Of a DNA stretch of 45,484 nucleotides, positions 11,273-16,638 are shown one piece after another. Under the pieces are notes generated by a model, which was not told the DNA's origin, ran no database searches, and saw only the letters and a list, made by a program, of their open reading frames with translations. Every line of letters begins with the position of its first letter. The stretch's first letter is position 1. This DNA comes from Nitratireductor sp. ZSWI3. Lineage in GTDB: Bacteria > Pseudomonadota > Alphaproteobacteria > Rhizobiales > Rhizobiaceae. The stretch spans positions 1 to 45,484 of the forward strand of contig NZ_JANKOF010000033.1 of assembly GCF_024655565.1 (NCBI RefSeq), written 5' to 3'. Position numbers and translations under genes: made by a program.

Positions 11273-13966
<2,694 letters not shown>

Positions 13967-13989: not shown

Positions 13990-14017
13990 AAGGCCGCCGG
14001 AGAGATCCGGCGGCCTT
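13990..14017 (+). terminator. Hairpin terminator after acnA
   Basis: AAGGCCGCCGG (13990-14000) pairs perfectly with CCGGCGGCCTT (14007-14017) around a 6-nt loop, 24 nt past the acnA stop codon. It is followed by TT only, with a looser T-run about 14 nt later, so it is a strong hairpin but not a textbook intrinsic terminator. Confidence 0.7.
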
Positions 14018-14045
14018 AGATCATCGCGATCGTTTTCAAAAAGTT

Positions 14046-14091
14046 AGAGCGGGATGCGGGCGGAAAACCGCTTCACACTTTTCCTCATCCC
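14046..14091 (-). repeat. Dispersed rhizobial-type palindromic intergenic repeat, copy 1
   Basis: This 46-bp segment contains GCGGAAAACCGC (a short palindrome) between GGGATG and CATCCC arms. Read on the minus strand it contains GTGTGAAGCGGTTTTCCGCC and is about 85 percent identical to 29480-29524. From general knowledge, sequences with AAAAGTGTGAAGCGGTTTTCCG are frequent between genes in Rhizobiales. No function is known to me. Confidence 0.65.
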
Positions 14092-14321
14092 TTGCTTGGA
14101 CCGGTTCATCGTTTCATGGAAACGTTGTCCCGTTCCATCTCTTTGTTTTTCCGCATTTATGCGGTCGTCAGGTGATTCCACCTGACTGCAAAATGCTCTG
14201 GTGTTGGAGGTCCGCGAGGCGGTCGCGACGGGTCTCACCGGAACGTGACTTCTGCTTGAGCTTTCCGACCCCCTATACTGCTTCGAAACAGACGGAAGTC
14301 TTCAGTTTCAGGACGGGAAGC
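14092..14321. other. Intergenic stretch before the DUF1223 gene
   Basis: No convincing gene is seen. A 64-codon minus-strand frame (14044-14238) overlaps the repeat and has no family features. A good -10-like TATACT (14274-14279) lies 43 nt before the DUF1223 start, with only a weak -35 (TTCTGC, 14250-14255), so this stretch probably holds that gene's promoter. Confidence 0.4.
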
Positions 14322-15077
14322 ATGACGTTTCAAGCCAGACGGCTCTGGCCGGCGGCCATGGTGCTGGCAGCCTGCCTCGCAACCGGCATGGCCCAGGCGC
14401 AGGATGCACGGCGCCCTCTGGGGGTGGTCGAGTTGTTCACCAGCCAGGGGTGCAGCTCGTGCCCGCCCGCCGACGCTCTCCTCAGCGAGCTGGCGCAAAA
14501 GGCCAATGTGATCGCTCTGGCATATCACGTGGACTATTGGGACTATCTCGGTTGGAAGGACGCCTTGGGCAGTGCCGAGAACACGGAGCGCCAGCGGGCC
14601 TATGCGAAGTCCCTGGAGAACGCTTCCGTCTACACGCCTCAGGCGATCGTCAACGGCCGGCGGGACATGAATGGGGCCCGTCGCGACAGCGTGCTCAGCG
14701 CCATGAACGGCATGGCAGAGACCGTCGACGGCCTGTCCGTCGACCTCTCGATCCGCGACACCGGCGACAGCATCGTCATCGACGCAGGGTCTCTGGAGGG
14801 TGGCGGAGCCGTCAACGCCCATGTTCTGCTGGTCGATTTCGCGCCACGGCAAACCGTCGCCATCCGGTCCGGCGAAAATCGGGGGCGGACCCTGGACTAT
14901 TGGAATGCCGTCAACCGGATCCATACGGTCGGCATGTGGAACGGCGCGGCCAAGAGCTACGAGCTGCCGAAGAACGAGCTGGTCAAGGAAGGCAATGGCT
15001 GCGCGGTGCTGCTGCAGGTCGTCGACAAGAAGGGGCGGCCCGGCCCGATTCTCGGGGCGGCCAAGATGCAGCCTTAG
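14322..15077 (+). CDS. DUF1223 secreted thioredoxin-fold protein
   Basis: 251 residues. An N-terminal signal peptide (MTFQARRLWPAAMVLAACL then cleavage near AQAQ, about residue 27) precedes a DUF1223 domain beginning VVELFTSQGCSSCPPAD. The CxxC pair (C44, C47) sits where thioredoxin-like proteins keep their redox site, and DYWDYLGW and TPQAIVNG are further family signatures. The protein is probably periplasmic; its substrate is unknown. The frame extends upstream to 14172, but the ATG at 14322 follows AGGACGGGAAG and begins the signal peptide, so it was preferred. It is followed by a small hairpin (15082-15099). Confidence 0.88.
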   Translation: MTFQARRLWPAAMVLAACLATGMAQAQDARRPLGVVELFTSQGCSSCPPADALLSELAQKANVIALAYHVDYWDYLGWKDALGSAENTERQRAYAKSLENASVYTPQAIVNGRRDMNGARRDSVLSAMNGMAETVDGLSVDLSIRDTGDSIVIDAGSLEGGGAVNAHVLLVDFAPRQTVAIRSGENRGRTLDYWNAVNRIHTVGMWNGAAKSYELPKNELVKEGNGCAVLLQVVDKKGRPGPILGAAKMQP

Positions 15078-15081
15078 AGCG

Positions 15082-15099
15082 CGGTGCTGTAAAGCACCG
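15082..15099 (+). terminator. Small hairpin after the DUF1223 gene
   Basis: CGGTGCT-GTAA-AGCACCG is a perfect 7-bp stem four nt after the stop codon. No T-run follows, so it may be a transcript 3'-end stabiliser or a weak terminator. Confidence 0.4.
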
Positions 15100-15123
15100 A
15101 CCGTTCCGCCCCGACAATCAGCC

Positions 15124-15156
15124 AAAAAAAACCGGCGCTGACTGAACCAGCACCGG
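15124..15156 (-). terminator. Intrinsic terminator of the minus-strand small RNA
   Basis: On the minus strand CCGGTGCTG (15156-15148) and CAGCGCCGG (15140-15132) form a 9-bp stem with one G-U pair, followed at once by eight T residues (15131-15124). This is a textbook Rho-independent terminator. No protein gene on the minus strand ends near it, which points to a non-coding transcript. Confidence 0.85.
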
Positions 15157-15290
15157 CATGACTTCCTTTGGGACCGTTGCCTTTTTCTCGCTGAGCGAGG
15201 TTGGTTCGATCCGGCCAACATCCCGAGGGCGGGGGGGCTTGGGGTTTTCGGGATCGGTGTCCGGACCGAACCGTCTCAGGCAACGGAGGA
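15124..15290 (-). ncRNA. Candidate structured small RNA (rod-like, 6S-like architecture)
   Basis: About 165 nt on the minus strand, ending at the terminator above. Long-range complementarity is extensive: CCGTTGCC (15286-15279) pairs with GGCAACGG (15181-15174); TGAG (15278-15275) with CTCA (15195-15192); GGTTCGGTCCGG (15272-15261) with CCGGATCGAACC (15214-15203, one G-U); ATCCCGA (15254-15248) with TCGGGAT (15226-15220). The apical loop is C-rich (CCCCAAGCCCCCCCGCCC). The asymmetric bubble between the closing and inner stems, the size and the isolated terminator recall 6S RNA, but I cannot match a 6S consensus by eye. The 5' end is estimated; no clear promoter was found. Confidence 0.65.
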
Positions 15291-15541
15291 ATGGTCGCGG
15301 GATAATGGGGCATGAGCTTGGACAAATTGTGGCAAGAATGTGTCACGACATCACCAATTCAGACAAAGCGTGCCCATTTGTTACTGTCGGCTAACGATAA
15401 GGGCTTGCAATTCACACGGCGGCCAGCCGCTTGCGCCCGGCTTCAACGACTTGATTTTAAAACATACTCTTTATGGGACTTGCATTTCGCGCACTGCCGG
15501 GCGAACCTTTTGCGTCACCAAATCGTCATGAGGTGCAACCG
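15291..15541. other. Intergenic region upstream of DUF2794 and of the small RNA
   Basis: No gene is evident. It is less GC-rich than its surroundings and presumably holds two outward promoters: for the minus-strand RNA (weak GGACAA complement at 15320-15325 and GGGATA complement at 15299-15304, 15 nt apart) and for DUF2794 (TTGATT at 15451-15456 and TATGGG near 15472). Neither pair is convincing. Confidence 0.3.
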
Positions 15542-15928
15542 ATGACAGATTACGGCAGCGCGGGGGAGGATAGGGACGACTCCGGGATATTGATCCCGCT
15601 GCATGAAGTGCGGAAGGTGAGATCGGACCTTCCCGTCACCTTCGAGCGGCGGGAGCTCGATCAGATCCTCCGCCTTTATGGCCGCATGGTCGCGGCCGGC
15701 GAGTGGCGCGACTATGCGATCGATCACCTGAAGGACCGGGCGATCTTCTCCGTGTTCCGGCGAACCAGCGAGATTCCGCTCTTCCAGATCGTCAAGGACC
15801 CCAAGCTGGCGCGCAAGCAGGGCGCCTACAGCGTCGTCGCCGCAACCGGAGCGATCCTGAAGCGCGGACACGAATTGCCCCGGGTGCTGACGGTTTTCGA
15901 CAAGACGCTGCGTCTCGTCACGGGCTGA
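15542..15928 (+). CDS. DUF2794 domain-containing protein
   Basis: 128-residue cytoplasmic protein of a family confined, as far as I know, to alphaproteobacteria and of unknown function. The conserved block VTFERRELDQILRLYGRMVAAGEWRDYAIDHL then FSVFRRTSEIPLFQI and PKLARKQGAYSVVAATG spans residues about 30-115. No signal peptide or membrane segment. The ATG at 15542 has AGGTG nine bases upstream and matches the usual N-terminus; an in-frame upstream start at 15473 would add 23 unlike residues. It appears monocistronic. Confidence 0.85.
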   Translation: MTDYGSAGEDRDDSGILIPLHEVRKVRSDLPVTFERRELDQILRLYGRMVAAGEWRDYAIDHLKDRAIFSVFRRTSEIPLFQIVKDPKLARKQGAYSVVAATGAILKRGHELPRVLTVFDKTLRLVTG

Positions 15929-15944
15929 GCCTGGGCCGTGCGTA

Positions 15945-16054
15945 GTTCGACAAGCTCACCATGAGGGAGGGTGAGCTTGGCAGGGAGCCTGATCCCCAAG
16001 GCGTTGCGACCGGTTTTGCAACCAATATCGCCCCTCATGGTGAGCTCGTCGAAC
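15945..16054. repeat. Inverted repeat pair with TTCGACAAGCTCA core
   Basis: GTTCGACAAGCTCACCATGA (from 15945, continuing to 15967) is repeated in inverted orientation at 16032-16054 with one mismatch over 23 bp. The pair flanks 64 bp and sits between the convergent DUF2794 and GNAT genes. The core TTCGACAAGCTCA is shared with the outer arms of the ccm-region element (10003-10015 and 10324-10336), so these belong to one repeat family. Confidence 0.7.
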
Positions 16055-16062
16055 CACCCATT

Positions 16063-16638
16063 CTAGGAATGGGCGCTTTTGCGGAAGAGCCGTTCCGGCA
16101 GCGAATCCGGATCGGGCGGGCTTTGCGTTCCGCCGTTCAGTTCGATCTGCATGAAGACCGTGTCCAGCCAGCCGTCGAACTTGAAGCCGCTGCCCTTGAG
16201 CACCCCGGCATGGCGGAAGCCCAGCGCTTCATGCAGGCCGACGGAGGCGCGGTGGCGGGAGCCGTCGCCGATGACGGCGACGATCTGGCGAAAGCCACGC
16301 TCCCTGCAGGCTTCGACCAGCGCTTTCAAGAGATCCCGCCCGACACCCCGGCCCTGGGCCTGCGGCGCCACATAAACCGAATCCTCGACCATGAAGCGAT
16401 AGGCGCGGCGGGGGCGGAACGGCCCCGCATAGGCATAGCCGAGAACCTCCTCGCCCGCCGCCGCCAGCAGATAGGGATAGTCCTTCTCGATCAGTGCCCG
16501 CATGCGCTGAAGCATCTCCGCTTCGTCCGGCGGCTCGAGCTCATAGCTGGCGGTGCCGTTGGCAACCGCATGTGCGTAGATGCGGGTGATGGCGGGTATG
16601 TCGGCGGGGGTTGCCGGACGGATGGTCAACGAGGTCAT
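16063..16638 (-). CDS. GNAT N-acetyltransferase, phosphinothricin acetyltransferase-like
   Basis: 191-residue acetyl-CoA-dependent transferase of the Pat/Bar/MnaT subfamily. The N-terminus IRPATPADIPAITRIYAHAV, the VEDSVYVAPQAQGRGVGRDLL acetyl-CoA-binding motif (Q/R-x-x-G-x-G/A) and the C-terminal GLHEALGFRHAGVLKGSGFKF match the subfamily, whose members acetylate phosphinothricin, methionine sulfoximine or related amino compounds. The frame is open far upstream, but the ATG at 16638 gives the canonical start MTSLTIRPAT. The Shine-Dalgarno is weak. It lies downstream of the Bax-inhibitor gene, separated by a terminator. Confidence 0.88.
   Translation of the reverse strand: MTSLTIRPATPADIPAITRIYAHAVANGTASYELEPPDEAEMLQRMRALIEKDYPYLLAAAGEEVLGYAYAGPFRPRRAYRFMVEDSVYVAPQAQGRGVGRDLLKALVEACRERGFRQIVAVIGDGSRHRASVGLHEALGFRHAGVLKGSGFKFDGWLDTVFMQIELNGGTQSPPDPDSLPERLFRKSAHS

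Follow-up and report, generated by a model that had tools for sequence, protein, structure and literature searches.

A stretch of 45,484 nucleotides from Nitratireductor sp. ZSWI3 (contig NZ_JANKOF010000033.1), here called the window, carries on its minus strand what is probably a free-standing gene for a non-coding, trans-acting small RNA, present in single copy and orthologous both to PmaR of Agrobacterium (Rfam family Atu_C10) and to BjrC174 of Bradyrhizobium, with an apical loop that pairs with messenger RNAs. The predicted small RNA almost certainly exists. Rfam lists Atu_C10/PmaR and BjrC174 separately; what is new here is that the two are joined with each other and with the unannotated window RNA, which is how the data are best read. 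The three RNAs appear to be a single ancient RNA gene, which many members of the order to which the rhizobia belong have retained next to the same protein gene.

The gene occupies the slot between the genes for a DUF1223 and a DUF2794 protein, on the strand opposite to both, and this is also the slot of PmaR; its sequence occurs once in the genome. Conserved sequence begins near 15287 and the elements of the hairpin follow in the order outer stem, main stem, internal bubble, upper stem, C-rich loop, side hairpin on the 3' arm, and terminator. The features of the locus are:

11273-13966, plus strand: aconitase gene, upstream of the DUF1223/RNA/DUF2794 stretch (named by eye)
14322..15077, plus strand: DUF1223 gene, convergent neighbour (PF06764, 215.5 bits)
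15124..15297, minus strand: small RNA gene, 5' end approximate (fold z -6.53, alignment A1, nhmmer matches)
15124..15157, minus strand: intrinsic terminator, 12-pair stem (15157-15131) and T8 tract (15131-15124)
15174..15286, minus strand: outer 9-bp stem, CCGUUGCCU (15286-15278) with AGGCAACGG (15182-15174), in the minimum free energy (MFE) fold
15203..15272, minus strand: main 12-bp stem, GGUUCGGUCCGG (15272-15261) with CCGGAUCGAACC (15214-15203)
15220..15254, minus strand: upper 7-bp stem, 15254-15248 with 15226-15220
15227..15247, minus strand: C-rich apical loop of 21 nt, unpaired in the MFE fold
15235-15227, minus strand: invariant core of the loop, CCCC-x-G-CCC, in 33 of 33 sequences
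15300..15335, minus strand: upstream conserved block, presumed promoter (alignment of 29 upstream regions)
15542..15928, plus strand: DUF2794 gene, divergent neighbour (PF10984, 139.1 bits)

After the DUF2794 gene, at 15943-16060, lies an imperfect inverted repeat, GTTCGACAAGCTCACCATGAGG ... CCTCATGGTGAGCTCGTCGAAC, which by eye resembles an extragenic palindrome.

The minus strand of 15124-15297 folds to -79.4 kcal/mol, against a mean of -54.9 for shuffled sequences (sd 3.75; z = -6.53), with none of 200 shuffles folding as well; over the longer span 15115-15300 the z score is -4.24. A terminator scan of 14000-16500 found a single terminator-like site, that of the RNA, which by itself lies within chance, since shuffles of the same interval average 2.4 such sites. 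Among the 75 sequences that carry the loop motif (of 81, being the window and 80 related loci), all of them kept in the count and the window included, 64 have a terminator-like site 3' of the loop, compared with 10% of shuffles. The original prediction, of a structured small RNA gene on the minus strand with its own terminator, is thus borne out by fold, conservation and terminator, and the nested stems, bubble, C-rich loop and T8 tract that it described are all correct in the MFE fold.

It had also stated that the terminator ends no protein gene, and this holds. The locus might encode a small protein, given that a minus-strand open reading frame (ORF) of 90 amino acids, 15074-15346, is open in the window; tblastn places in-frame stops within the hairpin region of several relatives, as near as L002, and frame changes in further relatives in the part of the output inspected, while loop length varies by one base between relatives in alignment A1. 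A coding function is therefore extremely unlikely and was rejected: the window RNA is non-coding.

Upstream of the RNA a promoter scan found no sigma-70 hexamer pair. In an alignment with no shuffled control, 29 upstream regions drawn from all groups share a block, GCC...TTT..TCCAA....GCCC.AnT (15335-15300 in the window), which is clearest among the relatives of the window and looser in the other groups. The RNA is probably transcribed from an unusual promoter of its own in this block; that such a promoter is common to the groups is plausible but unproven.

The size and shape of the hairpin had suggested 6S RNA (ssrS), which binds RNA polymerase as a mimic of an open promoter, and a covariance-model scan with the Rfam 6S family had been proposed. 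The window RNA does resemble 6S RNA in length (about 170 nt) and in forming one long interrupted hairpin, but the 6S model (RF00013) has its one match in the genome on another contig, at 79.5 bits, and returns no row at E <= 10 in 15000-15450 (gathering threshold 46.4 bits). The conserved unpaired element is moreover a C-rich loop at the apex rather than a central bubble. With a separate 6S gene in the same genome and no match here, the 6S identity was rejected; its probability is close to nil.

At gathering thresholds an Rfam search of the whole window returned no family. The best rows in 15000-15450 are BjrC174 (RF02355) at 17.7 bits and Atu_C10/PmaR (RF02497) at 15 bits, both covering the hairpin on the minus strand and both short of gathering (45 and 60 bits respectively). 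The alternative offered in the original prediction, a candidate new RNA, stands insofar as no Rfam family is reached at threshold, but not insofar as the RNA is orthologous to two that are already listed. By features other than score, the window RNA has the long stem and C-rich loop holding CCC-x-G that mark Atu_C10/PmaR, with accessibility of the loop predicted, and the position beside DUF2794 that marks BjrC174. The proposed family, comprising the window RNA, PmaR and BjrC174, shows a covarying common stem, an invariant loop core and the same slot and strand.

Conservation beside DUF2794 was assessed in the best 80 of 565 DUF2794 loci. Searching with the window RNA, nhmmer found a match upstream of DUF2794 and on the RNA strand (E < 0.001) in 73 of the 80; two that it missed have an Atu_C10 match of 110.5 bits at the slot (L079) and a match of 33.1 bits to covariance model R1 (L081), so that 75 of these 80 have a related RNA at this position. 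The remaining five (L058, L062, L075, L076 and L077) gave no RNA match with either nhmmer or R1. Alignment A1 retains 32 of 46 sequences after thinning, being the window and 31 relatives, and leaves out 13 lacking a clear nearby terminator as well as L079, which was too divergent; A2 holds 26 of those 32, and A3 and A4 each hold 33 of 42 hairpins. The training set of R1 comprised the window sequence and 25 relatives and excluded Atu_C10 and BjrC174 sequences; a second model, R2, was built from 33 hairpins of all three groups.

All 40 R1 loci that were fetched (the best ones, the window's own included) adjoin DUF2794, and 35 of them DUF1223 also. The R2 sites fetched numbered 69: the order's 30 best and 20 weakest, the five best of the family, and 14 more from the family, 13 of these weak. 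DUF2794 lies beside 28/30, 15/20, 5/5 and 13/14 respectively, 61 of 69 in total, and in each of those 61 its strand is opposite to that of the RNA; DUF1223 is present at 36 of the 69. Some of the best R2 sites come from training genomes; the order's 20 weakest do not, and all 15 of these that adjoin DUF2794 have it on the opposite strand. Five of the eight sites with no nearby DUF2794 (L163, L171, L182, L184, L187, L192, L197 and L201) fall among those 20 weakest. Aconitase and DUF1223 are retained at one of the eight, L201; six others have BjrC174 matches at the site that stay below threshold (27.6 to 42.5 bits), and L171 has none. The fetched sets overlap in part and hence their counts are not additive.

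Several further elements were observed at these loci. Extra, diverged copies of the RNA occur at L141, L142 and L143 (genomes G064 and G455); a transposase-like ORF, identified by eye, is close to L142, a further and diverged gene resembling DUF2794 (43% identity) adjoins L143, and L141 and L142 have no DUF2794 match. At L050 (2422-2564, plus strand) and L115 (1695-1837, minus strand), a further known small RNA, BjrC1505, at 76.6 bits in each, is the immediate neighbour of the C-rich-loop RNA and lies on the other strand, so that two small RNA genes point at each other. The ybhL leader (RF00520) reaches threshold in seven of 17 loci searched (L004, L017, L066, L071, L078, L079 and L081), past DUF2794 and on the minus strand, and falls just below it in L072 and L002; the window itself has no ybhL match at threshold.

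The stems are maintained by compensatory change. In A3 (33 sequences of the three groups, aligned with MAFFT and not fitted to structure), 91.9% of the cells in the named stems are paired, against 21-54% when partners are slid by one to three columns, a comparison tilted towards the named stems, as the structure was taken from the window sequence. Compensatory cells number 79, against 27.5 in shuffles (sd 4.5), and none of 500 shuffles is as high; two other measures are less extreme, the 11 pairs with change on both sides being reached by 30 of 500 shuffles and the 32 further pair types by 32 of 500. The main stem is paired in 96.0% of cells over the 33 sequences, with both sides changed in 5 of its 12 pairs, and the upper stem in 84.8%, with both sides changed in 6 of 7; RNAalifold on A1 retains pairs of the outer stem through CG/UG/UA and UG/UA changes. 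The original prediction had named a lack of covariation in homologous spacers as a way to refute it, and on running that test covariation is present.

Conservation of the loop core is strict. All 33 sequences of A4 have the same base at columns 41-44 (C), 46 (G) and 47-49 (C); at column 40 all but one have C, and column 45 is variable. Mean identity over the nine columns of the core is 0.95, eight of them being at 0.97 or more. The C-rich loop had been singled out from the window alone and proves to be the most conserved unpaired part of the RNA. A second proposed pairing element, the 5' TTCCTCC, fared less well: it is present, but the stretch varies freely over the 31 aligned relatives, and a conserved anti-Shine-Dalgarno role for it was rejected. 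Counting along the Rfam Atu_C10 consensus gives C58, C59, C60, A61 and G62, together with G47, which are the residues named in the PmaR paper; CCCA 58-61 of PmaR map to A4 columns 42-45, three of the four invariant, which puts the site needed experimentally within the unpaired part that is best conserved across the family.

The same slot and the R1 matches together mean that the window RNA, PmaR and BjrC174 are best read as orthologues. At E < 0.01, R1 matched all 12 BjrC174 loci and five of seven Atu_C10 loci, the other two being the weakest (L079, E 0.075; L084, E 0.08). Atu_C10 gave seven hits in 151 family genomes, two over the Rfam threshold; of the six that were fetched, four lie under that threshold. 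BjrC174 was positive in 76 of 297 genomes of the order, 21 over threshold, and the best 12 of the 76 were fetched. DUF2794 stands beside all 18 fetched loci (6/6 and 12/12), and DUF1223 beside 17 of the 18, including 11 of the 12 for BjrC174. Beyond the loop and the main stem there is little in common between the three groups, which also differ in length.

It could be argued that the three RNAs are unrelated and merely alike, as GC-rich genomes often make C-rich hairpins, and both the low cross-scores against Rfam models and behaviour on the wrong strand would fit this. In L079 the wrong-strand R1 match is slightly ahead (17.1 versus 14.8 bits), and L081 has a weaker wrong-strand match too; the hairpin is nearly palindromic, so that covariance models can match or even prefer the wrong strand (L079 2702-2815; L081 2670-2784), and strand calls for weak members accordingly need synteny. 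Against a chance resemblance stand the slot and strand beside DUF2794 at 61 of 69 R2 sites, where the expectation for a random 3-kb region is well under 1% (estimated from genome size), and the result that a strictly filtered R1 scan of 337 genomes across the class matched none but the window's own. We consider it very unlikely that the three are unrelated and retain orthology as the preferred reading.

R1 matched 10 of 10 genomes of the genus (the window's own included) and 149 of 297 of the family, while R2 matched 89 of 151 in the family and 105 of 297 in the order; strict filters were applied above 40 genomes and these counts are consequently lower bounds. In a class-wide sample of 96 genomes, 49 carry the gene for DUF2794, which is therefore more widely distributed than the RNA. 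In the accessible parts of its publication, PmaR is described as confined to Agrobacterium species plus a single Rhizobium strain, and as possibly of recent origin; orthology, as best read from the comparisons of sequence and position, would run against that restriction.

What the RNA does may be approached through PmaR, formerly named C10 in Agrobacterium, for which the accessible sections of the literature report detection by Northern blot and RNA-seq. The loop of PmaR was shown experimentally to be accessible, binds mRNA directly in vitro and regulates in a loop-dependent manner in vivo. According to the same sections, a variant with CCCA at 58-61 replaced by UUUU neither regulates targets nor rescues growth or motility, and gives no gel shift with murB or ampC. 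PmaR is reported to act through transcript stability, raising most of nine or more targets and lowering one, and its authors state that the interacting sequence is not an anti-Shine-Dalgarno. By analogy, we infer that the window RNA is expressed, probably from its own unusual upstream promoter, and uses its loop on mRNAs. The long stem would present a single-stranded C-rich loop, which would likely base-pair with G-rich segments in the 5' UTRs or coding regions of several mRNAs and so alter their stability, mainly stabilising and sometimes destabilising them.

Pairing with murB in the window's genome was not supported, its energy ranking 10 of 36 windows and 34% of shuffled loops doing as well, in a test of low power; five Atu_C10-type murB controls were likewise weak, at ranks 3 to 11 of 36 in the same low-power setting, and over the murB start regions of 24 genomes, again at low power, no shuffled loop was as good in three. 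That murB pairing is not conserved, and that conservation of the loop is stricter than shifting sets of mRNA targets would seem to require, could be taken to indicate that the loop's partner is a protein or another RNA and not mRNAs, the window RNA being a sponge or scaffold titrating a single-strand-binding protein or G-rich small RNAs. The binding of mRNA by the PmaR loop in vitro and its loop-dependent regulation in vivo, as given in the accessible sections, speak against this, and we regard it as unlikely, though deserving of consideration, beside the preferred reading of a loop that pairs with mRNAs.

DUF2794 was also considered as an RNA-binding protein. Its predicted fold (mean pLDDT 83.1) has no match in the PDB at E <= 0.001 (best E 0.48) and its gene is wider than the RNA, and the idea was rejected. 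In the accessible part of a paper on MucR silencing in Brucella, a DUF2794 gene is tabulated among affected genes with a minus sign, in an excerpt without the column headings, and that passage makes no mention of a small RNA.

More speculatively, and with little confidence, the family might be a single ancestral, near-core RNA of the Hyphomicrobiales, with a loop core fixed since early in the order, a non-canonical promoter and a functional linkage to the divergent DUF2794 gene as partner or regulator, the cell wall and beta-lactamase targets of PmaR then being a late specialisation of an older and more general role. The present results place PmaR in a family found in 105 of the 297 order genomes sampled and in 89 of 151 of the window's family. 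A defined locus and loop in many laboratory hosts allow one to ask what the RNA did before its Agrobacterium targets arose, and the covariance model can annotate the RNA where Rfam currently reports nothing.

The literature drawn on here comprises passages of PMC6234868, PMC4842269, PMC8959179, PMC10746212, PMC7143759, PMC5082802 and PMC5596092. A search covering mostly papers outside subscription found none that, by title, opening of the abstract or available passages, joins PmaR with BjrC174. The accessible text of two small RNA surveys (PMC2873474 and PMC3927594) makes no mention of the S. meliloti locus tags looked for, which proves little. The Mesorhizobium huakuii table lists no candidate within 3 kb of the ybhL leader MH_s34, where the geometry of L066 would lead one to expect the RNA.

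Among characterised RNAs beyond the order, GsrN of Caulobacter is a small RNA with a C-rich loop. In CcnA, also of Caulobacter, a CCCC in the loop is said, in the passages available, to meet a GGGG close to the ctrA start, which recalls the C-rich loop of the window RNA; both differ from it in order and locus, and are likened to it by description. BjrC174 shares with the window RNA its slot, strand, main stem (with UA to CG compensations) and C-rich loop, and differs in its 201 positions and its other flanking stems. It too is reported, in the accessible passages, to lack a mapped promoter motif of the RpoD or RpoN type, its start site having the highest promoter activity among the tested sites with no mapped promoter; passages of the one paper found to name it give no function. 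PmaR/Atu_C10 of Agrobacterium has the same DUF1223-DUF2794 slot and strand, a spoon-like stem, a C-rich single-stranded loop and CCC-x-G at the site needed experimentally; compared with it, the window RNA additionally forms an outer stem, its 3' part is longer and carries a terminator, and the flanks of the loop differ.
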